Notes: a model not told the origin generated them from the letters alone. DNA of 37,464 bases from Spirochaetales bacterium (GCA_017540815.1 JAFYAI010000153.1:1-37464), one strand, 5' to 3'. Shown: positions 2,484-16,887, counted from the first letter of the stretch. A program made the numbers and translations.

Positions 2484-2536
2484 ATATAAAAAAATAAGGA
2501 TTTTGTCATATAGGCAAAATCCTTATTTTTTTATAT
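2484..2536 (+). terminator. rho-independent terminator of mnmA
   Basis: A 22-bp perfect stem (2484-2505 with 2515-2536) around a 9-base loop. The A-run and T-run in the arms supply the U-tract. It separates mnmA from the promoter of the thiol operon. Confidence 0.85.
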
Positions 2537-2555: not shown

Positions 2556-2584
2556 TTGACAAAGTAGGTAATTAATGTTATTAT
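2556..2584 (+). promoter_or_regulatory. consensus promoter of the M20/ligase/amidotransferase operon
   Basis: TTGACA (2556-2561), exactly 17 bases, then TATTAT (2579-2584). The boxes are identical to those of the promoter of the ABC transporter-CooS operon. The spacer contains the half-site AGTAGGTA (2563-2570). Confidence 0.8.
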
Positions 2585-2585
2585 A

Positions 2586-2606
2586 TACCTACTAAACCAG
2601 TAGATT
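2586..2606 (+). promoter_or_regulatory. candidate operator CTAC-N7-GTAG just downstream of the -10 box
   Basis: TACCTACT (2586-2593) pairs with AGTAG (2599-2603) to form the dyad CTACT-N5-AGTAG. It also pairs with AGTAGGTA at 2563-2570 inside the promoter spacer. The position around the transcription start is typical of a repressor site. The layout recalls Rrf2-family sites (IscR/CymR type), but no regulator gene is in the window. Confidence 0.55.
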
Positions 2607-2621
2607 GAAAGGAGCGCCGCT

Positions 2622-3842
2622 ATGCTTCACGCAGACAGGAACAGACTTATACAGGATTTCATTACGCTTGCTCGGATTGATGCCGTAAGCAAAAATGAGC
2701 GAGTGATTGCCGATGCTGTTACAGAAATGCTTCGCAATATCGGATTTTATGTAAGCGAAGATAATGTCGGCACGGAGATCGGCGGTTCTGCCGGCAATAT
2801 CTGTGCTGTCCTGCGAGGAAATAATCCGGATGCCCGCCCTATTCTGTTCTCTGCCCATCTTGATACAGTGCAGCCGGGAATTGGCAAGCTGCCGGCTCTT
2901 GACGAAAATCATCAGGTGATGATTTCCAATGGCAGCACAATCCTCGGTGCTGACGACATCTGTGGCATTGTTGAGATTCTTGAAGGTGTGCGGCTTGCTT
3001 TAAGTGATGCAGCCGCAAAAAAATCATCAGGTGATGAAAATTCCGATAACTCTTTATCTGCACAAAAAACAGCCGTTCACGGCGATATAGAGATCCTTTT
3101 CACTGTCGCAGAAGAATGTTACGGTCTCGGAGCAAGGCATTTCGACTACTCAAGACTGATAAGCCGTGATGTGTATGTCCTCGATATGAGCGGTGCTGTC
3201 GGCAAAGCAGCAAATGCCGCTCCGTCGATAATATCATTCTCAGCGGTGATTAGAGGCAGAGCATCGCACGCAGTATTCAAACCGGAATACGGAATTAATG
3301 CCGCAGCCGCTGCTGCTGATGCAATAAGCCACATCCCACAGGGACGAATATCCGAGACAGCGACATTCAACATCGGCACGATAAGCGGCGGAACTGCTGA
3401 CAACATTGTTCCTGCGGAATGCCGCATTACAGGTGAATGTCGCAGCCTTAACCATGACGAAGCGTTAAAGATAATCTCTCATGCCGAAGAAACATTCCGA
3501 AACGCCGCAGCCAAAGTCGGAGCGGAACTGACATTCGACAGTGATGTCAAGATACAGGCATATCGGACTCCAACCGACTCCGATGTGTGCCGTGACTTCG
3601 TATCGGCTTGTGAGTCACTCGGACTAGATGGCACAATTGTGCAGACTCTCGGCGGCAGTGACAATAATGTTTTCGCTCGGCACGGTTTAAGTGGCATTGT
3701 CCTATCATGCGGGATGTTTAACACACATTCGACACAGGAGTACGCAAGTGTCAATGAAATGGCGGCGGGTGCAGAACTTGTTGCCGCACTAATCGCACAG
3801 CGGAGCAGATCGATAAGAAGGAGCGGATATGATAACGGTTAA
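2622..3842 (+). CDS. M20-family metallopeptidase (PepT-like)
   Basis: A 406-residue zinc peptidase of the M20 family, first gene of a four-gene operon. Metal-binding and catalytic motifs are visible: SAHLDT (H79, D81), GADD (D111), VAEE (E164, E165) and a late NTHSTQEY histidine. The overall order fits tripeptidase T-like enzymes, which cleave short peptides. Yeast Dug1, a Cys-Gly dipeptidase of glutathione breakdown, is also an M20 enzyme, and the company of two glutamate-cysteine ligases and a Dug3-like amidotransferase suggests thiol peptides as substrates. Two copies of a palindromic repeat lie inside the coding sequence, at residues about 95-101 and 134-139. The second sits in a Ser/Asn-rich stretch that looks inserted. 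Start supported by AAAGGAG 7 bases upstream. Confidence 0.85.
   Translation: MLHADRNRLIQDFITLARIDAVSKNERVIADAVTEMLRNIGFYVSEDNVGTEIGGSAGNICAVLRGNNPDARPILFSAHLDTVQPGIGKLPALDENHQVMISNGSTILGADDICGIVEILEGVRLALSDAAAKKSSGDENSDNSLSAQKTAVHGDIEILFTVAEECYGLGARHFDYSRLISRDVYVLDMSGAVGKAANAAPSIISFSAVIRGRASHAVFKPEYGINAAAAAADAISHIPQGRISETATFNIGTISGGTADNIVPAECRITGECRSLNHDEALKIISHAEETFRNAAAKVGAELTFDSDVKIQAYRTPTDSDVCRDFVSACESLGLDGTIVQTLGGSDNNVFARHGLSGIVLSCGMFNTHSTQEYASVNEMAAGAELVAALIAQRSRSIRRSGYDNG
2906..2925. repeat. palindromic repeat copy inside the M20 gene (frame NHQVMI)
   Basis: The core TCATCAGGTGATGA is at 2909-2922, with perfect arms extending to 2906-2925. It is translated in frame without disrupting the gene. 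Confidence 0.7.
3021..3037. repeat. second palindromic repeat copy inside the M20 gene (frame KSSGDE)
   Basis: TCATCAGGTGATGA at 3024-3037, with an A-run on both sides. It encodes KSSGDE within a low-complexity loop, just before the conserved HGDIEILFTVAEE segment. The reading frame across the repeat differs from the copy at 2906. Confidence 0.7.
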
Positions 3843-5247
3843 TGACATTGACGAAGCAATCTACAAACGGTGGATCGCTCCAATCCAAAATAAACATGGC
3901 AAATATATCGGCACGGAATTTGAGCTGCCGATCATCAATCTTGACAAAAAAGCAGTCGATTTTGATGTTGTTCATCGGCTGACTGTCGCATTCTGCGATA
4001 AATTCGGATTTGGCTCATTCCACTATGATGATGACGGCAATATCTGTGCTGCAGAACATGCCGACAATGGCGACAGCATATCTTTCGACTGCAGCTATAA
4101 CACGCTGGAGCTTTCATTCGGCAGGGAATTGTCGCTTCATGCGATAGATACGCGTTTTCGCCGATATGTCGGATTTATCAATGAATATCTTGCCGCAGAT
4201 CATCACATTGTGACCGGTATGGGGCTCAATCCTTATTATCAGCTCGACAATCTTGAGCCTATTCCAAACGGACGCTATAGAATGCTGCTGCACCACCTGA
4301 AATCCTACGAGAAATACGCAGATCAGATGTTGTTCCATAACATCCCGTATTACGGGCTGATCGCATGTTCGGAGCAGACTCACATCGATGTCAGTGAGAA
4401 TGAAGTTGTGCGGTTTATAAATGTGTTTAACCGGCTTGAGCCATTCAAAGCACTGCTGTTTGCCAACTCACCGTCAGGCGAATATCTGTGCCTTCGCGAT
4501 CACCTGTGGCGTGAGAGTATGCACGGGCTTAATCCTCATAATGTTGACAGCTGGAATGTCGAACTGCATTCCATTGATGAGATTGTCGCATATATTCGCT
4601 CGATGAGTCTGTACTGCACGGAGCGTGACGGTCATTACATCAACTTCACGCCGACTCCGCTGGAGACTTACTTTGCCACAGAGAATATGTGCGGCGAGTA
4701 TTGGGACGGAAGTCGGTATCAGCGGATAGAATGGCAGCCTGAACTTAACGACTTGAAATATCTCCGATCGTTTAAATTTGTGGATCTGACATTCCGCGGG
4801 ACACTGGAGCTTCGCAGCTGCTGTATGCAGCCTCTGAGTGAAGTGATGACCGTACCTGCGTTGAATGTCGGATTATCGCAGCGACTCGGTGAACTGGAAG
4901 AACTGCTTGCTCAGTCGGAGATTTTCCGATACGGCTATACCACGGCTGAGCTTCGCAAGATGTTTGTTATGAGGACACTGCCGCCGTTTGCACATTCCGA
5001 TAAGCTCAAAGAGACACTTCATCAGATTGTATGGCTCGCTTATAACGGATTGCGTGACCGCGGACGGGATGAAGAGTCTATGCTGCTGCCGCTGTTGGAT
5101 CGGGCAGACAGAATGGAGAGCCCGGCTCGTGAGATGGTTAGGAATATTGAGAATGGCAAAACTATGGAAGATTATATTGTCCGATACGGCTCATTCGGCA
5201 CAAATGCGGAGGAACAATCATGCTGCACATTGATGATGAATATATAA
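3829..5247 (+). CDS. glutamate-cysteine ligase-like protein (GCS2-like type)
   Basis: A 472-residue member of the glutamine synthetase-like ATP-dependent ligases that join the gamma-carboxyl of glutamate to an amine. Visible features are IGTEFELP (28-35), NTLELS (91-96), QTHIDVS (183-189) and RGTLELRSCCMQP near 330. These fit a glutamate-cysteine ligase related to the GCS2/EgtA group rather than the E. coli GshA type. It overlaps the end of the M20 gene by 14 bases, with AAGGAG 5 bases before the ATG, so translation is probably coupled. The next gene is a second ligase of a different class, which is unusual. The substrate could be cysteine, a gamma-Glu-Cys derivative or another amine; the sequence does not decide. 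Confidence 0.75.
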   Translation: MITVNDIDEAIYKRWIAPIQNKHGKYIGTEFELPIINLDKKAVDFDVVHRLTVAFCDKFGFGSFHYDDDGNICAAEHADNGDSISFDCSYNTLELSFGRELSLHAIDTRFRRYVGFINEYLAADHHIVTGMGLNPYYQLDNLEPIPNGRYRMLLHHLKSYEKYADQMLFHNIPYYGLIACSEQTHIDVSENEVVRFINVFNRLEPFKALLFANSPSGEYLCLRDHLWRESMHGLNPHNVDSWNVELHSIDEIVAYIRSMSLYCTERDGHYINFTPTPLETYFATENMCGEYWDGSRYQRIEWQPELNDLKYLRSFKFVDLTFRGTLELRSCCMQPLSEVMTVPALNVGLSQRLGELEELLAQSEIFRYGYTTAELRKMFVMRTLPPFAHSDKLKETLHQIVWLAYNGLRDRGRDEESMLLPLLDRADRMESPAREMVRNIENGKTMEDYIVRYGSFGTNAEEQSCCTLMMNI

Positions 5248-6629
5248 ACGCACATAAATTCGACTGCAAAATCGGATTGGAGCTGGAGTCTCACCGCATC
5301 AGCCCTGACGGCTATCTGTCGCATACTGCCAATCCGTTTGATGACTGCCGATATATAGATCGGGATTTCAGCGAGTCGCAGATTGAGATCAACACTTTGC
5401 CGATGGACTCGCCGTCATCGGCGTTGGATTTCCTACGGCAGCAGCTGTATATTGTCCACGATCGTTTGGAGAGCCGCCGCGAGCTGCTGTGGCCATTTTC
5501 CAATCCGCCGATGATTCGCAATGCCGACGATGTCCCGATCGCTGTTTACACAGGCGATAATGTGCAGAAACTGATTTATCGGCAGCATTTGGCAGAGTAC
5601 TACGGCAAGTATATGATGACCTACTCCGGGATTCACTATAATTATTCTTTTTCAGATGACATATTAATGCACAACTTTAATATTGATGTCAAAAATCAGA
5701 GCATTGACTGTGCAAAAACTAAGCACCTGTGTCACCCTGAACTTGATTCAGGGTCTCATTCGTTACACATAACGGAGATGCTGAAACAAGTTCAGCATGA
5801 CAGCTCTCATTTGGACAGTCTAAATGCTCAAAATGCGGAGGATTATAAAACATATAAGGAAAAGTTCTATCTGCATCTGGCTCAGCAGGTGCTTGCTCAC
5901 AGTTGGATGGTTGTCGCACTGCTTGCCGCAAGTCCTATAGCTGATAACTCATTCTTTGAGGTCGGCAAATCTGACAAGAGTGTGTTTACGGGATTTTCAT
6001 CACTGCGGTGCAGCGAACACGGCTATTGGAATATATTCTCTCCGGTGTTGGATTATTCGTCAATCGAGGCTTATACGAACTCAATCGAATCGTATCTCCA
6101 TCAGGGACTGCTTGCTCAGGCGAGCGAGTTATACTACCCTGTCAGATTGAAGCCTGTCGGCAGCTACACTCTTGACAATCTTCGTAAGAATGGCATAAGC
6201 CACATCGAACTGCGTATGATAGACCTTAATCCTTTCTCCGAATCAGGCGTTGCTCTGTCGGATCTTGAGTTTATCAGGCTGCTGCTTGTGTATCTTGCTT
6301 CGCAGAATGCCGCTCTACTTACTCAGCGTGACCAGCTGCAGGCTCTGCAAAATCACAAGAATGCGTCGAATTACGATTGGGATATTGCACGCATTACACT
6401 TGGCAGCAAAAGTCTGTCACTGACCGAAGCATTGTCGGAGAAACTCAACCAAATCCAATCATTTTACGCTGACTCTCCGCAGGCTATAGCCATTCTGTCT
6501 GCTCAGTGGGATAAGCTAAACTCTAAGTCCAGCCGCTACGCTTACCGAGTTCGGGCAGAATACGGCAAAGACTATATCGGCAGCGGCATTCGCAGGGCAA
6601 AACAAATACAGGAGTACTACAATGTGTGA
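5220..6629 (+). CDS. gshA: glutamate-cysteine ligase, E. coli GshA/GshF-N type
   Basis: 469 residues. The motifs follow the E. coli GshA class closely: IGLELESHRISPDG (18-31), DRDFSESQIEI (48-58), LLWPFSNPP (89-97), YRQHLAEYYGKYM (120-132) and SGIHYNYSF (136-144). The reaction would be ATP-dependent formation of gamma-glutamylcysteine. There is no ATP-grasp glutathione synthetase domain, and no gshB is in the window. A two-hairpin dispersed repeat (5731-5802) is translated in frame as residues about 171-194, within a variable region between the SGIHYNYSF motif and the later LAHSWMVVALLAASP segment. The gene overlaps its upstream neighbour by 28 bases and the next gene by 8. It may work with, or on the product of, the other ligase. 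Confidence 0.82.
   Translation: MLHIDDEYINAHKFDCKIGLELESHRISPDGYLSHTANPFDDCRYIDRDFSESQIEINTLPMDSPSSALDFLRQQLYIVHDRLESRRELLWPFSNPPMIRNADDVPIAVYTGDNVQKLIYRQHLAEYYGKYMMTYSGIHYNYSFSDDILMHNFNIDVKNQSIDCAKTKHLCHPELDSGSHSLHITEMLKQVQHDSSHLDSLNAQNAEDYKTYKEKFYLHLAQQVLAHSWMVVALLAASPIADNSFFEVGKSDKSVFTGFSSLRCSEHGYWNIFSPVLDYSSIEAYTNSIESYLHQGLLAQASELYYPVRLKPVGSYTLDNLRKNGISHIELRMIDLNPFSESGVALSDLEFIRLLLVYLASQNAALLTQRDQLQALQNHKNASNYDWDIARITLGSKSLSLTEALSEKLNQIQSFYADSPQAIAILSAQWDKLNSKSSRYAYRVRAEYGKDYIGSGIRRAKQIQEYYNV
5731..5802. repeat. two-hairpin dispersed repeat inserted in frame in gshA
   Basis: Two hairpins in series: ACCCTGAACTTGATTCAGGGT and ATGCTGAAACAAGTTCAGCAT, joined by a variable spacer. A second copy lies between thiG and thiH at 14915-14982. 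The translation (HPELDSGSH, then EMLKQVQHDS) resembles peptide stretches I recall from many metagenomic proteins, which come from such repeats. Confidence 0.85.
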
Positions 6630-7392
6630 AATGTTAGCCGTCACGGCAAAAAACAGTTTCAGGATAAATGAACTGCTGGAGACATTCTACAGTCACAGTA
6701 TCAATCACAAAGACGGCTGGGGGCTTGCCGTATTCCGCAAGCTGTCCGTCTCAATGGAGAAAGAGCCGCTGTGTGCCTCATCAAGCAAATATCTGCAGCA
6801 GCGTCTGTCGCGTGACATTATCGCTGCGAATGCGATTGCTCATATCCGCCGAGCGACGATCGGCCGCATCGAATATGCCAACTGCCATCCGTTCGTTTGG
6901 GATGATGAGAGCGGTCGGACTTGGACACTTGCTCATAATGGGACAATATTCGACGGTCAGCAGCTGTCGCAGTTTGTCGGACAGCAGGAAGGCTCGACTG
7001 ACAGCGAGAGAATTCTTATGTATATAGTGAGTCTTATGAATGATTTGTATCGGATTAAAGGAGCAGTGCCTTTCGAGGAGCGGTTTCGGTTGCTTGAACG
7101 CATTGTCGGTGAGCTTGCTGCCGGCAACAAACTCAATCTATTGTGCTTCGATGGCGAGGTGCTATATGTTCACTGCAACTGCCGTGGCACGCTGTCAGTC
7201 CTGACTGAATCCGACAAATGTATCTTTGCAACCGCACCGGTATCATTCGATGCGTGGGAGTCCGTGCCGCTTTGTCAGCTGTTAGCTTACAAAGACGGAG
7301 AACTGATTCGATCCGGCATGAAACATTCGCACGAGTTTATCGAAGGTTCGCAGGATATGACATCGCTTATGTCTGTATTTGCGGAATTGTAG
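6622..7392 (+). CDS. class II glutamine amidotransferase (Dug3/EgtC/YafJ-like)
   Basis: 256 residues with an N-terminal nucleophile fold. Cys2 directly follows the start methionine and becomes the catalytic N-terminal cysteine after Met removal. AHIRRATIG, NCHPF, LAHNGTI and GSTDSE are all present, so the glutaminase site looks intact. No synthetase domain is attached. Stand-alone members include EgtC, which removes gamma-glutamate in ergothioneine synthesis, and Dug3, the yeast glutathione hydrolase subunit. In an operon with an M20 peptidase and two glutamate-cysteine ligases, a gamma-glutamyl thiol hydrolase is the most sensible guess. It overlaps gshA by 8 bases, with AGGAG before the ATG. 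Confidence 0.82.
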   Translation: MCEMLAVTAKNSFRINELLETFYSHSINHKDGWGLAVFRKLSVSMEKEPLCASSSKYLQQRLSRDIIAANAIAHIRRATIGRIEYANCHPFVWDDESGRTWTLAHNGTIFDGQQLSQFVGQQEGSTDSERILMYIVSLMNDLYRIKGAVPFEERFRLLERIVGELAAGNKLNLLCFDGEVLYVHCNCRGTLSVLTESDKCIFATAPVSFDAWESVPLCQLLAYKDGELIRSGMKHSHEFIEGSQDMTSLMSVFAEL

Positions 7393-7657: not shown

Positions 7658-8329
7658 ATGTTATCACCTGATGAAAATGTTATTAAACATAATTGTCCCC
7701 CATCAAAATCGGAAATGCTTGACGCATTGTATCTCAAACAGGGCAAAGAACGCACTGATAAGTTTCAAAATGCCGTCGTTGCGGTCTGTGGTCTTGGCGG
7801 ACTCGGCTCTAATATCGCTGTGAGTCTCGCCCGTGCCGGTGTCGGTCATCTCATCTTGATTGACTTCGATAATGTGGACATCACTAACCTGCACCGCCAG
7901 CAGTATAAGGCATCTCAGGTCGGCATGCCTAAAAGCGAGGCTCTCGCAGCGAACCTTCGTGAGATTGCTCCGTATATAAGTCTGACTATTCACAACCGGC
8001 GTATTGATCAGGATAATATCGAGGCACTTGTTGGTTCAGCCGATGTTATCTGCGAGGCATTCGACAATGCGGAATCTAAGGCAATGCTCGTTAATACCAT
8101 TCTGGAACGAATGTCTGACAAATATCTTGTGTCGGCATCGGGAATGGCCGGTATCGGCTCGGCAAATGAGATAAAGACAAAGCGGATTATGCCACATTTC
8201 TATCTGTGCGGAGATCTGACGAGTGATGTCTCAGAATGTGACAGTCTTGTCGCTCCGCGGGTTGCACTCTGTGCAGCAGCACAAGCATTGACTGTGCTGA
8301 GGATATTGGCGGGCAAATTTGATATATAA
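7658..8329 (+). CDS. thiF: ThiS adenylyltransferase ThiF (short family)
   Basis: 223 residues of the E1-like/MoeB-ThiF fold. The nucleotide-binding GLGGLGSNIAVSLARAGVG is near residues 45-63, followed by DFDNVDITNLHRQQY. It activates the ThiS C-terminus with ATP. The short length and the absence of the CxxC zinc ribbons of E. coli ThiF place it with the smaller ThiF proteins of anaerobes, which often travel with thiS, thiG and thiH. The codons just after the start contain a one-mismatch copy of the palindromic repeat (7661-7674), encoding LSPDE. thiGHE is encoded 6 kb downstream. Confidence 0.92.
   Translation: MLSPDENVIKHNCPPSKSEMLDALYLKQGKERTDKFQNAVVAVCGLGGLGSNIAVSLARAGVGHLILIDFDNVDITNLHRQQYKASQVGMPKSEALAANLREIAPYISLTIHNRRIDQDNIEALVGSADVICEAFDNAESKAMLVNTILERMSDKYLVSASGMAGIGSANEIKTKRIMPHFYLCGDLTSDVSECDSLVAPRVALCAAAQALTVLRILAGKFDI
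7661..7674. repeat. palindromic repeat copy (one mismatch) at the thiF start
   Basis: TTATCACCTGATGA differs at one base from TCATCACCTGATGA and begins directly after the thiF ATG. Confidence 0.5.
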
Positions 8330-8336
8330 TATTAAT

Positions 8337-8356
8337 GGGCGTGATGAATCACGCCC
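8337..8356. repeat. GGGCGTGAT palindrome downstream of thiF
   Basis: GGGCGTGAT-GA-ATCACGCCC is a perfect 9-bp inverted repeat with a 2-base centre. It could act as a hairpin after thiF. No T-tract follows, so it is more likely a dispersed repeat than a terminator. Confidence 0.6.
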
Positions 8357-8388
8357 GTACATACAAAGCATTATGAAAAAGAAAAATT

Positions 8389-8464
8389 TGTCGTTTCGAC
8401 CGGAGCGTCAGCGAAGCGGAGAAATCCATAGAAAATAGACCTCTCCACTTCGGTCGAGGTGACA
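8389..8464. repeat. 76-bp imperfect inverted repeat (TCGACCG / CGGTCGA arms)
   Basis: The outer arms TGTCGTTTCGACCGGAGCG and CACTTCGGTCGAGGTGACA are imperfect complements. The interior GGAGAAATC...GACCTCTCC adds further pairing. The layout is typical of intergenic REP-like elements. Only one copy is in this window. Confidence 0.65.
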
Positions 8465-8476
8465 AAATAGAAAACC

Positions 8477-8512
8477 AGCGAACGCCGTTAGGCGTGAGCA
8501 AATCCGTGTGAC
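8477..8512. repeat. partial unit of the CAAATCCGTGTGA repeat family
   Basis: A short hairpin (GCGAACGCC, loop, GGCGTGAGC) is followed by CAAATCCGTGTGA. The reverse complement of that end, TCACACGGATTTG, occurs exactly at 17388-17400, the border of the larger unit between dut and the M16 protease gene. Confidence 0.55.
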
Positions 8513-8530
8513 AAAAAAAGGAGTTAAATT

Positions 8531-9280
8531 ATGGAAAACGCATTTTCAAAATTCAAAAAAATCGATGCTCATTCGCATATCGGTTTTTTCGGCAGTCCGT
8601 TTAATGTGAACTTCAACGCTGATATGCTTGCCCGGCAGATGGACGAATACAATATTGAGAAAACCATTCTCTGCCCTGCGGCAGCCACACTCAACGAAGA
8701 GCTGCTTGCCGCATACAAGCAGATGTCTGACCGCATTATCCCGCTGTGCTGGGTCAATGCCAATCTCGGTCAGGCGGCTTACGATATGTTGGAGCATTAT
8801 CTGCGTGACGAGCATTTTGCCGGTGTGAAGATGCAGCCTCTGTTCGACGCATTTACCGCTGACTCGCCGATGGTCGATCCGATTATGGAGATTGCCAAAC
8901 AATACAGCAAGCCTGTGTTTATTCACTGCGGACATCCGCCATTCTCACTGCCGTGGCAGATTGGTCTCCTGGCAGAGCGTCATCCCGATGTGCCGACTGT
9001 GATGATACACATGGGGCATGGTCATGGTGTTTACATTGATGGCAGCATCACTATGGCGAAGAAATATGACAACCTTATGCTGGAGTGCTCCGGTATGCCG
9101 ATGGGCTGCCAGATTAAAAATGCGTATGAGAATGTCGGGGCTGAGCGGATTATGTTCGGTATTGACTCGCCGTTCCACCACCCGACTGTCGAAATACAGA
9201 GAGTCCTAAGCTGCGGACTGAATGATACCCAATTGGAAGATGTGTTTTATAATAATGCGGCAAGATTTATGGGAATGTGA
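8531..9280 (+). CDS. amidohydrolase-2 family TIM-barrel metal-dependent hydrolase
   Basis: 249 residues. Metal-ligand motifs appear in the expected order: DAHSHIG (HxH near residues 13-15), VKMQPLF, PVFIHCGHPP, VMIHMGHG and GIDSPFHHP, which ends in the conserved Asp. This fits COG2159-type amidohydrolases or decarboxylases, whose substrates vary widely. GGAG at 8520-8523 precedes the ATG. The gene is flanked upstream by a cluster of dispersed repeats and downstream by a strong bidirectional terminator shared with the converging cooS-like gene, so it is probably expressed alone. No substrate can be inferred; its place between thiF and the transporter operon is the only clue. Confidence 0.82.
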   Translation: MENAFSKFKKIDAHSHIGFFGSPFNVNFNADMLARQMDEYNIEKTILCPAAATLNEELLAAYKQMSDRIIPLCWVNANLGQAAYDMLEHYLRDEHFAGVKMQPLFDAFTADSPMVDPIMEIAKQYSKPVFIHCGHPPFSLPWQIGLLAERHPDVPTVMIHMGHGHGVYIDGSITMAKKYDNLMLECSGMPMGCQIKNAYENVGAERIMFGIDSPFHHPTVEIQRVLSCGLNDTQLEDVFYNNAARFMGM

Positions 9281-9281
9281 T

Positions 9282-9334
9282 AAAACTCAGATACATAACA
9301 CGCTGCTACGCAGCGTGTTATGTATCTGAGTTTT
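9282..9334. terminator. bidirectional terminator between amidohydrolase and cooS-like genes
   Basis: A 25-bp perfect stem around a 3-base TAC loop, with A-run and T-run ends. It can terminate both converging genes. Confidence 0.9.
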
Positions 9335-9349
9335 TAATTTTCATCTGTA

Positions 9350-11425
9350 TTAATCCCACCCAAGTGCTTTACGCTTTGCTTTCATATCTGATATAATCTT
9401 TTCGGCAAGAGTGATTGGATCTGTATCGACATTCATTGATGAACCTAATGTCTCCACTGTGCCGTGCTTGAGGAACTCTATCACATTCTTAGAGCCGTAT
9501 ATTTGAGCTTCAACGCAGTGATATGAACTGATTCCATTTAATCTAAATCCAAGTGCAGCATCTATACCTTTTTCGTTGCCCCATTCAGGTGATGCGAATG
9601 CAAAAGGCATTTCATACATTTTATGTCCTGCTGCAGCGGACACTCCTGCGAAGATACCTGATGAACGGGTATTGTCGATACATTCTCCGACATGCCATAC
9701 CGGTGGCAAGTCAGGCTCTAAGAATTGTTTTAAAGTTTGTCCTGCTTTGTCTTTGCCGGACACAGCACAGTACCCCAACTTCATCAGCGGAAAAGACGCA
9801 CATCCGTTGGATAGAATAAGTACATTATTTTTAAGCAAAACATCAGCCACATCGACGATACATTTTTCATACAAAACTTTTGGATTGTTGCAGCCGACCA
9901 TGTTGACTATACCAAGTATTCTGCCGTCTTTAATTGCATCTGCAATCGGCTGCATACCGCCGAATCTTTTATGAATGTATTCTACAGAAAATCCTACTTC
10001 TGCTTCAACTTCATAAGGCGGAATATGAACAGGGATACCTTTTCTTGCGGCAAAACTATCAATGGCTCGGCGAACAATCTGCTCAGCTAATGCTTTTGTT
10101 TGTTCAATATTGGAATGATGATGATCATATTCATATCGTTCTGCTCCTGGCAGGCGTGCAGATTCGCTTGTGGTAACGACAGTTGTTTGGAAACATTTTG
10201 CGACTTCCATAATCGACGGAAACACATCCTGAACATCTGCGACCCAAAGGTCCAATGCTCCTGTTCCAAGAACAAGTTCCGCAGAAACAGCATTAGACAA
10301 AGGAATCACTCCTGCATAGCGGTACATAGCAGATAATCCTGAGCAGCATATTCCATAAAATTTGATGCCCTTTGCACCTTTCGACTTGGCAAGATCAATT
10401 AGATCTGTGCGTTTACCTGCTTCGACAATCTGACTTACAAGCAGAGGCAGATGACCGTGAACGGCAATGTTTACATATCCTTTCTCCAATGCACCGATAT
10501 TAACTTTAGATGTTACTCTGTCACCTACGCCAAACAGACAGTCCGTCGCAATCGATGCACCTACTACTCCTGAGAATGTGAATGCCAGTCCACATCTAAG
10601 GAACTGCTGCATGATGGAACGCCAATCTCCGTCAGTAGCACATCCTGATTTATGATATGCTTCAAACACTTCGTGGTATGCACTGATTGGAACTATGTCG
10701 AGTTCTTTCCACACGGCTTGCCTTTCAGGAACTGCACAAGCGGAGATCGTCTTATACTCATCAGGTATTGTTCTTGATAAATCTTCCAAAAGCATTTTTG
10801 CCAAATCTCGTGCAACATTTTTCAGTGGACGGTGTTTTTGCTTTATGCCGAATGCTTCGGCTGTTGCTCTGACCTTTTGTTCTCCGAGAATCGGCACATT
10901 AAGTTTGCCTTCTGCTGCCCATAAAAGTGCAAGCATTACCTCTCTTGCGTGCATGCCATGCTGAGCGGCACCTGCTGCTGCTGAGCGTAAGAGATTTCTT
11001 GAGACAATCAAATCTGCATCTGCTCCGCATACTCCTTTAGGTGATTTTTGCGTAATGCGGCATGGCCCCATATTACATATCTTACAGCAAATACCTGCCA
11101 AACCAAAATTACACTGCGGTTTCTGAGCATCGAAACGATCGAATGCGGTATCTATACCAACTTGTTCCATTCTTAGCAGCATATCTCTAACGGCAGGATC
11201 CGGAGTTTGATCTATCACATCCTGTTTCGATGGAAATGTCCTGCGGTATTCAGTTACGGCATTCATATAATCTCTGATAAATGATTGATCATCTTCGTTA
11301 TCACTTTCATGATGGTCAGACTTCAGTATCACTGTAGGAATACCATGCTTGTCAAAGCCAATAATATTTCTGTGTGAATGTATGTGTGCCGGTGAATGGT
11401 GATCATGGTGATGATGTTCGTTCAT
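9350..11425 (-). CDS. CooS-like anaerobic CO dehydrogenase homologue with a C-cluster cysteine replaced by Asp
   Basis: 691 residues, last gene of the transporter operon. The D- and B-cluster cysteines are complete: C105, C113, C114, C117, C122 and C133. C-cluster elements include the HGH motif (323-325), GICC (360-361), GCNN (C512), NGCAS (C542), HVGECIDN (C582) and a lysine in PEWGNEKG (K619). The motif that reads DVQC in active Ni,Fe enzymes is DVQD here, so D400 replaces the cysteine equivalent to Carboxydothermus C333; the codon is GAT. A homologue lacking one canonical cysteine, C. hydrogenoformans CooS-V, is known to carry an Fe-S-oxo cluster and not to turn over CO. The first 50 residues are rich in His and Asp. 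No cooC or cooF adjoins. Fold sure, CO activity doubtful. Confidence 0.88.
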   Translation of the reverse strand: MNEHHHHDHHSPAHIHSHRNIIGFDKHGIPTVILKSDHHESDNEDDQSFIRDYMNAVTEYRRTFPSKQDVIDQTPDPAVRDMLLRMEQVGIDTAFDRFDAQKPQCNFGLAGICCKICNMGPCRITQKSPKGVCGADADLIVSRNLLRSAAAGAAQHGMHAREVMLALLWAAEGKLNVPILGEQKVRATAEAFGIKQKHRPLKNVARDLAKMLLEDLSRTIPDEYKTISACAVPERQAVWKELDIVPISAYHEVFEAYHKSGCATDGDWRSIMQQFLRCGLAFTFSGVVGASIATDCLFGVGDRVTSKVNIGALEKGYVNIAVHGHLPLLVSQIVEAGKRTDLIDLAKSKGAKGIKFYGICCSGLSAMYRYAGVIPLSNAVSAELVLGTGALDLWVADVQDVFPSIMEVAKCFQTTVVTTSESARLPGAERYEYDHHHSNIEQTKALAEQIVRRAIDSFAARKGIPVHIPPYEVEAEVGFSVEYIHKRFGGMQPIADAIKDGRILGIVNMVGCNNPKVLYEKCIVDVADVLLKNNVLILSNGCASFPLMKLGYCAVSGKDKAGQTLKQFLEPDLPPVWHVGECIDNTRSSGIFAGVSAAAGHKMYEMPFAFASPEWGNEKGIDAALGFRLNGISSYHCVEAQIYGSKNVIEFLKHGTVETLGSSMNVDTDPITLAEKIISDMKAKRKALGWD

Positions 11426-11445
11426 AATGCTGTCTCCGCTATTAA

Positions 11446-12222
11446 TTATATATAATATTCGATATATTCTTCGGTTTTAATATTGAATAATTCCAATATC
11501 TTATCTCTAACATAGAGAAAATCTGACGCGATCCGATCTCTGTGATGTCCGAGCGGAACTTTGACAATACTTTTAATTCTGCCGGGATTAGCCATCATAA
11601 CGACAATTCTATCCGCAAGAAACACCGCTTCTTCAATGTCATGAGTAACAAAGATAATTGTTTTTTTTTCTTGCCGAGATATTCTAAGAATATCTTCCTG
11701 TAGTTTCATCCTTGTGATAGCATCCAATGCACCAAATGGCTCATCCATGAAGATAATATCAGGGTCAACTGTAAGCCCTCGTGCAATTGAGACTCGCTGC
11801 TGCTGACCACCGGATAGTTGAGCCGGATGACGCTTTTCGAGTCCGGTCAGTCCGACTAAGTCAATATATTTTTGAGCAATTATCTTCCTTTCTTCTTTGG
11901 GGATTTTCTTGGTTTCAAGACCGAGCTCAACATTGCGAATGACATTACGCCATGGCAGCAGTCCATAATTCTGAAATATAGTTATATGATTAATAGTCGG
12001 TTCACTAACCTCTTGACCGTCGATCATAACACTGCCCTCAGTCAAATGGTCAAATCCCGCAATAGCATTAAGCAATGTACTCTTACCGCAGCCGGATGGT
12101 CCAAGCAAACATATAAATTCTCCTTTGTTAATATCAAGAGATACATTATCCAGTGCGTTAAATTCTTTGCCATTGTGAATAAACTTCTTGCATGCCTTCC
12201 TAACCTGAATATATGAAGTCAT
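11446..12222 (-). CDS. NitT/TauT-family ABC transporter ATP-binding protein
   Basis: 258 residues from the ATG at 12222. Walker A GPSGCGKST, the Q-loop around TIFQNYGLLPWRNV, the signature LSGGQQQRVSIARG and Walker B IIFMDEPFGALDA are intact. It energises import through the permease encoded upstream. The phrase FGALDAITRMKLQ is typical of the nitrate/sulfonate/bicarbonate group. The ATG at 12222 overlaps the permease stop as ATGA and has a GGGGG stretch before it. An upstream in-frame ATG at 12234 is possible but less likely. The cooS-like gene follows after 20 bases. Confidence 0.92.
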   Translation of the reverse strand: MTSYIQVRKACKKFIHNGKEFNALDNVSLDINKGEFICLLGPSGCGKSTLLNAIAGFDHLTEGSVMIDGQEVSEPTINHITIFQNYGLLPWRNVIRNVELGLETKKIPKEERKIIAQKYIDLVGLTGLEKRHPAQLSGGQQQRVSIARGLTVDPDIIFMDEPFGALDAITRMKLQEDILRISRQEKKTIIFVTHDIEEAVFLADRIVVMMANPGRIKSIVKVPLGHHRDRIASDFLYVRDKILELFNIKTEEYIEYYI

Positions 12223-12977
12223 TTTAACCCCCATAACTTTAATATCCGTTTCTCAGCAGATTTGAGCAGACTGTCCAGCAGAATGCCAATAACTCCTATG
12301 ACGAATATAGTTGCCAAGAGTATGTCAGCACGAATATTGTTCCTTGCATCGATAATCTGATACCCAAGACCTGATTGAGCTCCCACCATCTCACCGGCAA
12401 CTAAGAAAATCCACGCCGTTCCAAGAGCAAGATGAATGCCATTGGCAATTTGCGGAAATACCGCAGGAAATATAACCTTCCAAGTAGCAGCACTCCCACT
12501 TATCTCAAAATTTTTTGCGACTTTAAGATATATCGGGTCTATATTCCCAACTGCCGACACTGTTGAGAGAAGAACAGGGAAAAATGCTGCGATAAAAATA
12601 ATAACGATAGCAGGTATATCGCCAATGCCAAACAGCAGCACGACAAACGGCATCCATGCCGTTGGCGAAATCGGACGAAGCAGCTGTACGACCGGATTGA
12701 TATATTGAAACACTTTTGGCAGCCGACCAAGGATTAGACCAAGGATAACGGCAGCTGCAACCGCACTAAAATACCCTGCAGCAAAGCGATACATACTTGT
12801 ACCTATATTAGACAACAGCGTGCCGCTGCGAATCATCTCTATGAGTGCATAGAATGCCATCAACGGCGAAGGGAATAATGCTTTGCTGTAACTGCTGCAG
12901 AGAAATAAAATTTCCCAAACAAGCAGCAGTGCCGCTATCGATATTATGATGTTTTTTATAGACAATAGCTTTTTCAT
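12219..12977 (-). CDS. NitT/TauT-family ABC transporter permease
   Basis: About 252 residues with around six membrane helices. The binding-protein-dependent transport motif appears in LGTAWIFLVAGEMVGAQSGLG, which contacts the ATPase. LRPISPTAWMPFVVLLFGIG is characteristic of the SsuC/TauC/NrtB-like permeases. The ATG at 12977 is preferred; a GTG at 12986 is in frame, and neither has a strong ribosome-binding site. The ATPase gene overlaps by 4 bases. The sequence does not tell the substrate. Confidence 0.9.
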   Translation of the reverse strand: MKKLLSIKNIIISIAALLLVWEILFLCSSYSKALFPSPLMAFYALIEMIRSGTLLSNIGTSMYRFAAGYFSAVAAAVILGLILGRLPKVFQYINPVVQLLRPISPTAWMPFVVLLFGIGDIPAIVIIFIAAFFPVLLSTVSAVGNIDPIYLKVAKNFEISGSAATWKVIFPAVFPQIANGIHLALGTAWIFLVAGEMVGAQSGLGYQIIDARNNIRADILLATIFVIGVIGILLDSLLKSAEKRILKLWGLK

Positions 12978-13007
12978 TTTTATCACGCTTTTTTATAATA
13001 TAACTGA

Positions 13008-13913
13008 TTAAAAATCATTCTTGACAAAGTCCCGGTATGACGGTGGATTATCAGACAGTCCATATCGGCGAACTTTTTCCAGCAGATTATTATAAGCCTC
13101 TTCTGTAATGTCAAGATCATTGTATGAAATCCACTGCAGCGATATATCCAACACTTCATCTGATTGTGCCAGATATTTCTTAGCAACACTCTTTGCTAAA
13201 TCCTTAGTCAGTGAATTGCCTGCTGCTTTGTATGCCGTTACGAATGTTTTGGCATCCGCCGGTCTGTCATTGATAAATTTATCTGTTAAAACCAAACCGC
13301 AGCACAGTGAGTTCTCCCAAAGATCCTCTGATGAAGCAAGAACTTTGCCGACACCGAGAGATACTGCCATTGCACCGAATGGTTCTGCAACACAGTAGCC
13401 GTCAATCTGTTTGGCAGCAAGTGCAGATGGCATCTCTGTTGGTGCAAGTTCTGTTACCTTGACATCAGCGATTGACAGCCCTGCTGATGATAATATTTCA
13501 TTTAATAAAATATTATGAGATGATTGTCTGTGCGGAATCGCAACTGTTTTTCCACGCAAGTCTGCTGCTGACTCTATTTCATTGGATGAGATAATCACAT
13601 TGCCATCGCGATGACCGAGTGCAACTGCTGTGATGCCGATGCCTTCCTGCTTGGATTTCATTGCCAACTCTATTAGAACAGATGCTCCATCTACACGATT
13701 TGAATTCAAAGCATCAAGCAGCTCAGGCCATGAGCCATATCTGACAAGTTCAATATTCAGTTCAGGTGATTTAATTGACTGTTCTACTGTTTCAAGAACT
13801 GATAGAGAATGTGTAATCGGCAAATATGCAATTTTGATTGTGCTCTTTTTTTCAGAGCAGCCTGTCAATAAAAGGACTGCAGCTGTTATAATATAAAATA
13901 GTCTTTTTTTCAT
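13008..13913 (-). CDS. NitT/TauT-family ABC transporter substrate-binding lipoprotein
   Basis: 301 residues from the ATG at 13913, which has AAGGAG 7 bases upstream. The signal peptide ends in the lipobox LLTGC, so the mature protein is a lipid-anchored binding protein. Family features are IKIAYLPITHSLSV, YGSWPELLDALNSNRVDGA and the hinge region DLRGKTVAIPHRQSSHN. The group includes binding proteins for nitrate, bicarbonate, sulfonates and the thiamine pyrimidine precursor. The flanking thiSF and thiGHE loci would suit a pyrimidine precursor. Co-transcription with the CooS-like enzyme would suit a substrate of that enzyme, or a C1 or sulfur compound. The sequence alone does not choose. Confidence 0.85.
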   Translation of the reverse strand: MKKRLFYIITAAVLLLTGCSEKKSTIKIAYLPITHSLSVLETVEQSIKSPELNIELVRYGSWPELLDALNSNRVDGASVLIELAMKSKQEGIGITAVALGHRDGNVIISSNEIESAADLRGKTVAIPHRQSSHNILLNEILSSAGLSIADVKVTELAPTEMPSALAAKQIDGYCVAEPFGAMAVSLGVGKVLASSEDLWENSLCCGLVLTDKFINDRPADAKTFVTAYKAAGNSLTKDLAKSVAKKYLAQSDEVLDISLQWISYNDLDITEEAYNNLLEKVRRYGLSDNPPSYRDFVKNDF

Positions 13914-13934
13914 TATAATGCTCCTTGTTATATT

Positions 13935-13956
13935 ATACCTACTAATCTTGTAGGTT
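13935..13956 (-). promoter_or_regulatory. candidate operator CTAC-N7-GTAG of the transporter-CooS operon
   Basis: The plus strand reads TACCTACTAATCTTGTAGGT, a dyad of CCTAC and GTAGG around 7 bases. It begins just after the predicted transcription start on the minus strand. The left half matches TACCTACTAA at 2586-2595 exactly, so a shared regulator is likely. Confidence 0.55.
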
Positions 13957-13962
13957 ATAGAC

Positions 13963-13991
13963 ATAATATAACATTTCTTTTTATTTGTCAA
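13963..13991 (-). promoter_or_regulatory. consensus promoter of the transporter-CooS operon
   Basis: On the minus strand: TTGACA (13991-13986), 17 bases, TATTAT (13968-13963). The boxes and spacing are identical to those of the promoter at 2556. Confidence 0.8.
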
Positions 13992-14061
13992 GTGATTAGA
14001 AATATTTTTTGGGGAGCTATTGTAGATTTTTAAGTCTTATACAGTTTTATTTCATAAAAAT

Positions 14062-14090
14062 TTGACAATAATTCAAAATAATAATAAAAT
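14062..14090 (+). promoter_or_regulatory. promoter of thiG-thiH-thiE
   Basis: TTGACA (14062-14067), 17 bases, TAAAAT (14085-14090). The leader is about 30 bases long, too short for a TPP riboswitch. The 70 bases between this and the divergent promoter show no other feature. Confidence 0.7.
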
Positions 14091-14123
14091 ACAATTCATA
14101 TTCATAAAAGAAGGCAATTCAAA

Positions 14124-14894
14124 ATGAACGATGATAAACTGATAATCGGCGGGCACGAGTTTAACTCTCGCTTTATATTGGGATCGGGCAAATACTCGAT
14201 GAAACTGATCAAAGCTGCTGTTGAAGATGCCGGAGCGGAGATAATAACGCTGGCGGTTCGTCGTGCCAATACCAAGGACGAGGAAAACATTCTTGACTAT
14301 ATCCCGAAGGGTGTGACGCTGCTGCCCAATACGAGCGGAGCGAGGACTGCTGATGAGGCTGTTCGCATTGCAAGGCTTGCTCGTGAGTTAGGATGCGGCG
14401 ACTTCGTGAAGATCGAGATAATGCGTGATACGAAATATCTGCTGCCTGACAATGCAGAGACGATCCGGGCGACTGAGACGCTTGCCAAAGAAGGTTTCAT
14501 CGTTATGCCGTATATGTATCCGGATCTTAATGTTGCACGCGACCTTGTGAATGCCGGAGCTGCGACGATTATGCCGCTTGCCTCGCCTATCGGCTCTAAT
14601 AAGGGCCTGGCAACTGAGGAGTTTATCCAGATATTGATAGATGAGATAGACCTGCCGATAATCGTCGATGCCGGTATAGGCAGACCTTCGCAGGCTTGTA
14701 AGGCTATGGAGATGGGAGCCGCTGCGATCATGGCTAATACCGCACTTGCAACAGCCGGCAATCTGCCTCTGATGGCAGCAGCATTCCGCGATGCGATCAT
14801 CGCCGGACGAAGAGCATATCTTGCAGGAATCGGGCGAGTTCTTACCCGCGGTGGCTCGTCTTCCGATCCGCTTACAGGATTTCTAAGAAACTAA
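14124..14894 (+). CDS. thiG: thiazole synthase ThiG
   Basis: 256 residues of a TIM-barrel enzyme that builds the thiamine thiazole phosphate from deoxyxylulose phosphate, dehydroglycine (from ThiH) and ThiS thiocarboxylate. FILGSGKYS, the LAVRRAN segment, FVKIEIM with the Schiff-base lysine, the phosphate-binding [11 protein letters not shown] and MANTALATA are all visible. Length and ends are normal. GAAGG precedes the ATG. thiH follows after a 114-base gap containing a two-hairpin repeat and its own AAGGAG, so the genes probably still form one transcript. Confidence 0.96.
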
Positions 14895-14914
14895 AATGAC
14901 TATAAGAGTTCTTC

Positions 14915-14982
14915 GTCACCCTGAACTTGTTTCAGGGTCTCAAAGTAATGGAATGAGATGCTGAAACGAGTTCAGCATGACC
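14915..14982. repeat. two-hairpin dispersed repeat between thiG and thiH
   Basis: The same element as at 5731-5802: ACCCTGAACTTGTTTCAGGGT, then ATGCTGAAACGAGTTCAGCAT. Its right half is open in frame into thiH, which can mislead start calling. Confidence 0.85.
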
Positions 14983-15008
14983 ATTACGCAATAAGGAGTT
15001 TGTTTAAA

Positions 15009-16262
15009 ATGGAAAACAACTATTTCATAGATGATCCGACATTATCAGAAGCGGCACTTGCCAAGAAGCACCGCATTGAGACAGATCCGTCTGCCCGCAC
15101 CGATATAATGAAGTATCTGAGCGGAATGGAGATTATACAGTCTGATGTGTCTCAGAATGTCCTTACACATCTCAATGAATACGACTATAACCGATATACT
15201 CCGACCGATGTCAGAACTGCACTAAGTCATGACAAATGTTCTATCGATGACTTCAAAGCTCTGCTCTCGCCTGCGGCAGTTCCATTCCTCGAAGAGATGG
15301 CTCAGCGGGCAAGGATGGAGACCGGTAAGCATTTCGGCAATACTGTATATCTGTTTACGCCGCTTTACATCGCCAATTATTGTGAGAATTACTGCATTTA
15401 CTGCGGATTTAACACTTACAACCACATTCAGCGAATGAAACTGTCCTACGAGCAGATCGAGCATGAGATGAAAGTCATCGCCGACAGCGGTATGGAAGAA
15501 GTTCTGATGCTCACCGGTGAGAGCCATTCTCAGAGTGATCTGAAATATATCGGCGAGGCGTGCAAGTTGGCTCGGAAGTATTTCCGCAATGTCGGACTTG
15601 AAGTCTATCCGATGAATGTTGCTGATTATCGGTATCTCCATGAATGCGGAGCTGACTATGTGACTGTGTTTCAGGAAACTTATGATACAGTCAGATATGA
15701 GCAGCTTCATTTGCTCGGACACAAGCGCGTCTGGCCGTATCGGTTCGATTCGCAGGAGCGTGCTATAATGGGCGGGATGCGCGGCGTAGGATTTGCCGCA
15801 CTGCTTGGTTTGTCGGATTTTCGCAGAGACGCATTGGCGACTGCACTGCATGTCTACTATCTCCAGCGGAAATATCCCCATGCCGAGATGTCGCTCTCAT
15901 GTCCCCGATTACGCCCCATCGTCAATAATGACAAGATTACGCCGCTCGATGTCGGTGAGAAGGAACTTTGCCAAGTCCTGTGTGCTTACAGAATATTCCT
16001 GCCATTCGTTGGGATCACTGTATCGAGCCGTGAGAGTGCCTCATTTCGCAATGGCATCGCCAAGATTGCTGCGACGAAGATCTCAGCAGGAGTCTCAACC
16101 GGTATCGGCGATCACGAAAGCAAATACACCGGCAAGGAAGGAGATTCTCAGGAAGGAGATGAGCAGTTCGAGATTAACGACGGGCGAAGCCTCAATCAGA
16201 TGTATGACGACATAAGCGGCGAAGGACTTCAGCCTGTGCTGAATGACTACCTGTATGTATAA
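15009..16262 (+). CDS. thiH: 2-iminoacetate synthase ThiH (radical SAM tyrosine lyase)
   Basis: 417 residues from the ATG at 15009, supported by AAGGAG 10 bases upstream. The longer frame from 14958 starts inside the dispersed repeat and is not credible. The radical SAM cluster motif CxxxCxxC is at C125, C129 and C132. Downstream segments MLTGESHS, EVYPMN, VFQETY and GFAALLGLSDFRRDA match ThiH. The enzyme cleaves tyrosine to dehydroglycine for ThiG and needs a [4Fe-4S] cluster, hence anaerobic or well-protected conditions. ThiH rather than the oxygen-dependent ThiO fits an anaerobe. Confidence 0.95.
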   Translation: MENNYFIDDPTLSEAALAKKHRIETDPSARTDIMKYLSGMEIIQSDVSQNVLTHLNEYDYNRYTPTDVRTALSHDKCSIDDFKALLSPAAVPFLEEMAQRARMETGKHFGNTVYLFTPLYIANYCENYCIYCGFNTYNHIQRMKLSYEQIEHEMKVIADSGMEEVLMLTGESHSQSDLKYIGEACKLARKYFRNVGLEVYPMNVADYRYLHECGADYVTVFQETYDTVRYEQLHLLGHKRVWPYRFDSQERAIMGGMRGVGFAALLGLSDFRRDALATALHVYYLQRKYPHAEMSLSCPRLRPIVNNDKITPLDVGEKELCQVLCAYRIFLPFVGITVSSRESASFRNGIAKIAATKISAGVSTGIGDHESKYTGKEGDSQEGDEQFEINDGRSLNQMYDDISGEGLQPVLNDYLYV

Positions 16263-16887
16263 GCAAAGTGAAAATAATGCTGTCAATGAATTGACAGCAT
16301 ACATCGATAGAACTATATGTATCACAAACAGAGAGCTGTTTAATCAGTATCACCAATGTCACTCCGATGATGACTATCTGGAGCATATTCGCAGAATTGC
16401 TGCCACACAGCCGCGAGCCATTATACTGAGAGAAAAATCATCAGGTGATGATTTTTATTACTCCATTGCCGGGCGAGTCATCTCAATTTGTGAGTCTAAC
16501 GGAGTTCAGTGCATTCTCCACACTTTTGTTGATGCAGCAATGAAACTCAATCACAGAGCGATACATCTGCCGATGAGTATTCTGCGGCAGATGACCGATG
16601 AGCAGCGTCAGTTCTTTACTATACTCGGTGCGTCGTGTCACTCTGTCGAAGAAGCTCGCGAGGCACAGCTGCTCGGTTGCACTTATATCACTGCGAGTCA
16701 CATCTTCACGACAGAGTGTAAGCCGGATCTTGCTCCGCGTGGTTTGGACTTCCTCTCGGAAGTCTGCCGAGCCGTTACAATCCCGGTCTACGCTTTGGGC
16801 GGCATCCATCCGCATAATGCGGCGGCGGCTATCGCCGCCGGAGCAAGCGGCGTATGTATGATGAGTGAGTTTATGAAAATAAAATAA
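16243..16887 (+). CDS. thiE: thiamine phosphate synthase family protein (ThiE/TenI)
   Basis: 214 residues. The ThiE-like core begins at ICITNREL (about residue 25) and continues with IILREK, HLPMSIL, GASCHSVEEA, YITASHIF, CKPDLAPRGL and VYALGGIHP. ThiE couples the thiazole and pyrimidine phosphates; TenI is a related aminotransferase-like isomerase. HLP and the loss of the usual GP before IF lean slightly toward TenI. The first 24 residues exceed the family and overlap a 24-bp palindrome (16277-16300). A second palindrome (16433-16456) encodes KSSGDDF after ILREK. The start at 16243 overlaps thiH by 20 bases; the ATG at 16255 is an alternative. Confidence 0.78.
   Translation: MTTCMYKQSENNAVNELTAYIDRTICITNRELFNQYHQCHSDDDYLEHIRRIAATQPRAIILREKSSGDDFYYSIAGRVISICESNGVQCILHTFVDAAMKLNHRAIHLPMSILRQMTDEQRQFFTILGASCHSVEEAREAQLLGCTYITASHIFTTECKPDLAPRGLDFLSEVCRAVTIPVYALGGIHPHNAAAAIAAGASGVCMMSEFMKIK
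16277..16300. repeat. 24-bp palindrome in the extra N-terminus of thiE
   Basis: ATGCTGTCAAT-GA-ATTGACAGCAT: 11-bp perfect arms around a 2-base centre. It is translated in the part of ThiE that precedes the conserved core. Confidence 0.7.
16433..16456. repeat. palindromic repeat copy inside thiE
   Basis: A 24-bp palindrome with core TCATCAGGTGATGA (16438-16451), translated in frame as KSSGDDF at a position where ThiE proteins vary. Confidence 0.75.

Follow-up and report, generated by a model that had tools for sequence, protein, structure and literature searches.

An operon encoding two classes of gamma-glutamyl ligase, an M20 peptidase and a class II amidotransferase in a Spirochaetales bacterium

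In haloarchaea, the main thiol is gamma-Glu-Cys itself, and GshF-N-like ligases are known as stand-alone proteins from gut methanogens (PMC7278568). In yeast, Dug2-Dug3 acts on glutathione and on gamma-Glu dipeptides (PMC7617739). The operon described here, found in a 37,464-nt stretch of DNA from a Spirochaetales bacterium (GCA_017540815.1 JAFYAI010000153.1:1-37464; "the window"), resembles the haloarchaeal system and stand-alone GshA in having a glutamate-cysteine-type ligase without a glutathione synthetase, but differs from the haloarchaeal system by its two ligase classes and by the presence of a class II glutamine amidotransferase (GATase) and an M20 peptidase. Like the yeast DUG pathway (Dug1, Dug2-Dug3), it combines an M20 peptidase with a class II GATase; however, its M20 is PepT-like, its ligases are encoded in the same operon and the GATase of most relatives has no linked M20. 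The EgtA/EgtC enzymes of ergothioneine synthesis likewise include a GCS2-family ligase and a class II GATase, which in EgtC is a gamma-glutamyl hydrolase, whereas the operon GATase scores only 52 bits against the EgtC model TIGR03442 (cut-off 219) and the genome has no EgtD. Since the M20 is PepT-like and the GATase is not an EgtC, the likenesses to DUG and EgtC are analogies only. The GshA-like ligase, finally, aligns along the N-terminal ligase domain of GshF (GshAB), but it has no ATP-grasp domain and carries Met in place of a conserved Gln (the E. coli Gln144 column). No account of this four-gene operon was found in the open-licence papers searched.

The four genes are encoded on the + strand and overlap by 14, 28 and 8 bases, in agreement with the 8 to 28 bases given in a first-pass annotation of this DNA. 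They encode a PepT-like M20 metallopeptidase of 406 aa (2622..3842), a GCS2 (family 3, plant/alphaproteobacterial-type) gamma-glutamyl ligase of 472 aa (3829..5247), a ligase of the GshA/GshF-N-domain type (5220..6629) and a GATase_4 class II (Ntn) amidotransferase of 256 aa (6622..7392), and each gene is preceded by a purine-rich Shine-Dalgarno-like stretch. A terminator-like hairpin of 20 pairs with a T run (2488..2532, + strand) separates the upstream mnmA unit from the operon. The strong promoter predicted earlier was found as a sigma-70-like site on the + strand at 2556..2584 (TTGACA-17-TATTAT, extended TG), near-consensus at 11/12 positions, which is a match to the consensus only. Past a gap downstream of the operon start thiS/thiF and other thiamine genes, and no functional tie between these and the operon was found. 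This downstream region (7658-16887) contains thiF, thiG, thiH and thiE-like genes, interspersed with a thiY-like binding protein/ABC transporter and a CODH-like cooS; these names were read off the translations, and thiF alone was tested by profile.

Profile matches bore out that the two ligases belong to different classes. The GCS2 protein matched PF04107 (E 2e-8, 34.6 bits against a cut-off of 21) and carries the catalytic Glu/Arg motifs of this family; its relatives in the PDB were plant glutamate-cysteine ligases only (2gwc, E 5e-10), and its identity to alphaproteobacterial glutamate-cysteine ligases (GCLs) was about 21-25%. The GxExE, LELS and E-x-R (ELR) motifs were invariant or nearly so among homologues. 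Plant and alphaproteobacterial cysteine ligases share its RY, Q..D, LFA/SNS and R..W positions. The EMRGADGGPW motif of the plant/alphaproteobacterial enzymes is not kept; the protein has ELRS-C-QP instead, in which the E, the R (and a P) remain, and it scored 54 bits against the 463 required by the plant-type GCL equivalog TIGR01436.

The GshA-like protein matched PF04262 well above the cut-off (E 2e-53, 182 bits against 27) and the PDB GshAB structure 3ln7 (E 3e-35). Its closest similarity is to the N-terminal half of the bifunctional GshF, with about 26-31% identity along the ligase domain, after which the protein stops, with no ATP-grasp domain of the kind found in GshF. The ExE, DF.E..E, H and E-R motifs, including the metal-binding Glu columns, are kept, as are the equivalents of E. 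coli Tyr131, Arg132, Tyr241 and Tyr300. By comparison, the E. coli Gln144 column held Gln in 7 of 7 glutathione-pathway ligases (4 PDB sequences and 3 GshF) and Met in all 4 of the operon-type GshA-like proteins compared; a Cys and a Trp near the Arg/Tyr motif also distinguish the GshA-like protein from GshF. Tyr131, Arg132, Tyr241, Tyr300 and Gln144 reportedly bind the cysteine substrate in the E. coli structure. The acceptor pocket of the GshA-like enzyme therefore appears to be altered, and with Gln replaced by Met across the family the amine acceptor may not be cysteine. In alignments, the catalytic Glu/Arg residues were invariant in both operon ligases, and conserved positions near the presumed substrate sites of both depart from those of known cysteine ligases. 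Each ligase family is represented by one copy in the assembly, which spans 3.07 Mb and is 93% complete.

The GshA-like gene also contains a dispersed palindromic (REP-like) element (5724..5805, + strand), which lies in frame in a length-variable region, adds CHPELDSGSHSLHITEMLKQVQHD to the protein and is missing from homologues. This element occurs in about 45 places genome-wide. Eight further copies among the ten best had sufficient flanking sequence, and none of them was in a long ORF, so the in-frame insertion in the GshA-like gene looks exceptional. A second copy in the window lies at 14915-14981, 5' of thiH.

The fourth gene product matched PF13230 (E 8e-34, 117 bits). Cys2 was found in every complete GATase_4 copy; in one relative (L021) the start chosen for the alignment hides this residue, and an upstream GTG start includes it. 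Arg76, Asn106-Gly107 and Asp127 were invariant in an alignment of relatives, and are presumably, by analogy with PurF/GlmS, the class II gamma-glutamyl pocket. The GATase_4 domain, the N-terminal Cys and the pocket expected of a Dug3-like domain are thus all present, which places the protein in the broad GATase_4 family. Its nearest characterised relatives include EgtC. The first-pass annotation had called the protein Dug3/EgtC-like; identity with EgtC itself was not supported, given the TIGR03442 score and the lack of EgtD. Structure predictions for two sequences (pLDDT 43 and 33) were too low for use. The M20 protein matched PF07687 (E 1e-15) and PF01546 (E 7e-9), has the metal/catalytic motifs HxD, D, EE, D and H and scored 258 bits against the PepT-like model TIGR01883, slightly below its cut-off of 274. 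The nearest solved structures were the PepT-like 3gb0 (E 2.5e-58) and 3rza, and neither Dug1 nor a Cys-Gly dipeptidase appeared by name among the solved-structure matches up to E 10. Close kinship to the Dug1/Dug2 enzymes cited in the first-pass annotation was not supported by these matches, on which membership of a DUG pathway was rejected.

Glutathione and ergothioneine genes were sought at the genome level by family profiles at the tested thresholds, the window's assembly being 93% complete. GshB (PF02955) had no match above cut-off in the window's genome or in its Bacillota relative, and the GshF ATP-grasp family (ATP-grasp_6, PF18419) was absent from 12 of 12 genomes that carry parts of the module, the window's included; the earlier observation that no glutathione synthetase lies nearby thus extends genome-wide at these thresholds. 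EgtD was absent from all 13 genomes searched, again including the window's. Allowing for incomplete assemblies and unrecognised enzymes, these absences make synthesis of ordinary glutathione and of ergothioneine unlikely. Both were rejected as products, ergothioneine also because the GATase falls far under the EgtC cut-off, and glutathione itself is probably not made.

Among the matches listed from a species-level genome collection, one close locus was found (L002), in a Bacillota metagenome-assembled genome (MAG) from roe deer jejunum. It has the identical gene order (M20-GCS2-GshA-GAT4), with identities of about 51, 60, 51 and 58% in gene order. GCS2 relatives were found in 10 of 346 genomes related to this MAG (its own included), which carry the Bacillota label from being listed as its kin. 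Linkage, which had been set as a test that could refute the first reading, was conserved in distant relatives as well, although with fewer genes: GCS2-GshA-GAT4 in L020, GAT4-GCS2 in L021 to L026 and L028, and M20-GCS2 followed by the contig end in L029. A lone GshA-like gene was found in L044. In a wider sample, a remote GCS2 (31%) was located beside ribosomal protein genes (G698), and the GCS2 of G772 followed a different, aminoacylase-like M20 amidohydrolase, with no adjacent GAT4. In the latter case (L047, 6471-9090, reverse complement), the aminoacylase-like M20 lies directly 5' of GCS2, apparently an independent ligase-amidohydrolase pairing. Where GCS2 had 43% identity or more and the flank was readable, GATase_4 adjoined GCS2 or was one gene off in at least 10 genomes (the window's included), with G772 as the sole exception. 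GATase_4 and GCS2 are the constant core of the module, and the GshA-like and M20 genes are add-ons. Pairwise distances of GCS2 and GATase_4 were correlated (r = 0.90, 9 genomes, Mantel permutation p 0.0004), and as common species history feeds into this value, the correlation shows co-inheritance and not contact.

A neighbourhood common to spirochaetes, for which the first-pass annotation had suggested a search, was not supported. Of 384 genomes sampled in the window's phylum, only the window's own has a GCS2 of the operon kind, and given the lack of the module in the other 383 the operon looks horizontally acquired; its G+C is not strongly deviant. A contaminating contig is unlikely, because contig C71 has two dispersed repeat kinds that are common to many other contigs of the assembly. 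No relatives were found in viral contigs, and viral carriage was rejected on this basis.

Taken together, the two ligase classes, the lack of a detectable synthetase and the conserved linkage favor the view, moderately probable in our judgment, that the operon is a module that makes and recycles a gamma-glutamyl compound other than ordinary glutathione. This best reading keeps the central proposal of the first-pass annotation; a spirochaete neighbourhood, close Dug1/Dug2 kinship and EgtC identity were not supported. In the reactions, substrates and direction of flux that we infer, GCS2 would spend ATP to couple glutamate, through its gamma-carboxylate, to the amine of cysteine or of some similar amino acid, giving gamma-Glu-Cys or a near relative, and the GshA-like enzyme would carry out the same ligation onto a second acceptor, perhaps not cysteine. 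The N-terminal Cys of the class II GATase would split the gamma-glutamyl bond to release glutamate and the acceptor, like EgtC and yeast Dug2-Dug3, and the M20 peptidase would cut the leftover peptide or help the GATase. The second ligase and the PepT-like peptidase could then represent an extended version for a longer or different peptide. A more specific form, possible but doubtful, is an undescribed gamma-glutamyl metabolite with at least one step using a non-cysteine acceptor, for example a bis-gamma-glutamyl or mixed gamma-glutamyl peptide made by the two ligase classes, which could serve host-associated anaerobes for redox or storage purposes as a compound distinct from glutathione. Several points weigh against the module reading. 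An unregulated ligase and hydrolase side by side would form a futile cycle, and since in most relatives the GATase_4-GCS2 pair has neither a GshA-like gene nor an M20 linked to it, no single pathway fits all layouts. In addition, the GCS2 of G772 is paired with another M20 amidohydrolase and no adjacent GATase_4, and both ligases differ from known cysteine ligases at conserved positions around their presumed substrate sites.

The most constant link, one GATase with one ATP-dependent ligase, is also the classic amidotransferase layout. The Arg, Asn-Gly and Asp of the glutamine pocket are retained, as would suit a glutamine-dependent amidoligase in which ammonia released from glutamine by the GATase is used by GCS2 to amidate an activated carboxylate, as in other GATase-ligase pairs. 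However, GCS2 keeps the RY, Q..D, LFA/SNS, R..W and E-R features of cysteine ligases, suggesting glutamate and an amino-acid acceptor, and the presence of a gamma-glutamyl hydrolase among the closest characterised GATase relatives makes amidation distinctly improbable. We also regard as unlikely a role in scavenging, where the hydrolases would break down glutathione or gamma-glutamyl peptides taken up from outside to obtain cysteine and glutamate, with the ligases only storing surplus cysteine as gamma-Glu-Cys. While a PepT-like peptidase and a GATase could dismantle gamma-Glu-Cys-Gly, in a genome without glutathione synthetase and with a host-associated relative, the window operon has no linked transporter, two ligases would be odd in a catabolic operon and it is with a ligase, rather than a peptidase, that the GATase is constantly paired. 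The pairing of a ligase with a gamma-glutamyl hydrolase, and the changes that set the GshA-like family apart near its presumed acceptor pocket, could also reflect gamma-glutamylation as a handle. In that case an amine or an unusual amino acid would be tagged for a time, processed by enzymes encoded elsewhere and freed by the GATase, as with PuuA/PuuD for putrescine and EgtA/EgtC for ergothioneine. This seems quite improbable, as no recurrent linked enzyme for a tagged intermediate was found across the layouts and the 13 genomes lack EgtD. If the preferred reading, a module that makes and recycles a gamma-glutamyl compound, is true, bacteria without a recognisable glutathione synthetase own a dedicated gamma-glutamyl ligase-hydrolase module, and thiol labelling with mass spectrometry would make the question of their small thiols directly testable. 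The GATase_4-GCS2 pairing also suggests a role for a class II GATase subfamily known by domain alone.

The window also contains a 14-base palindrome, TCATCASSTGATGA, at 1143, 1271, 2909, 3024, 7397 and 16438, with two of these sites within the M20 gene and one just 3' of the operon. These 6 sites compare with 0.45 in shuffles, a figure that covers both strands and tolerates as many as 2 mismatches, and genome-wide 94 sites were found while the reversed control gave 0. Five copies on contig C31 (10485-10918) follow one another at intervals of 105 bases.
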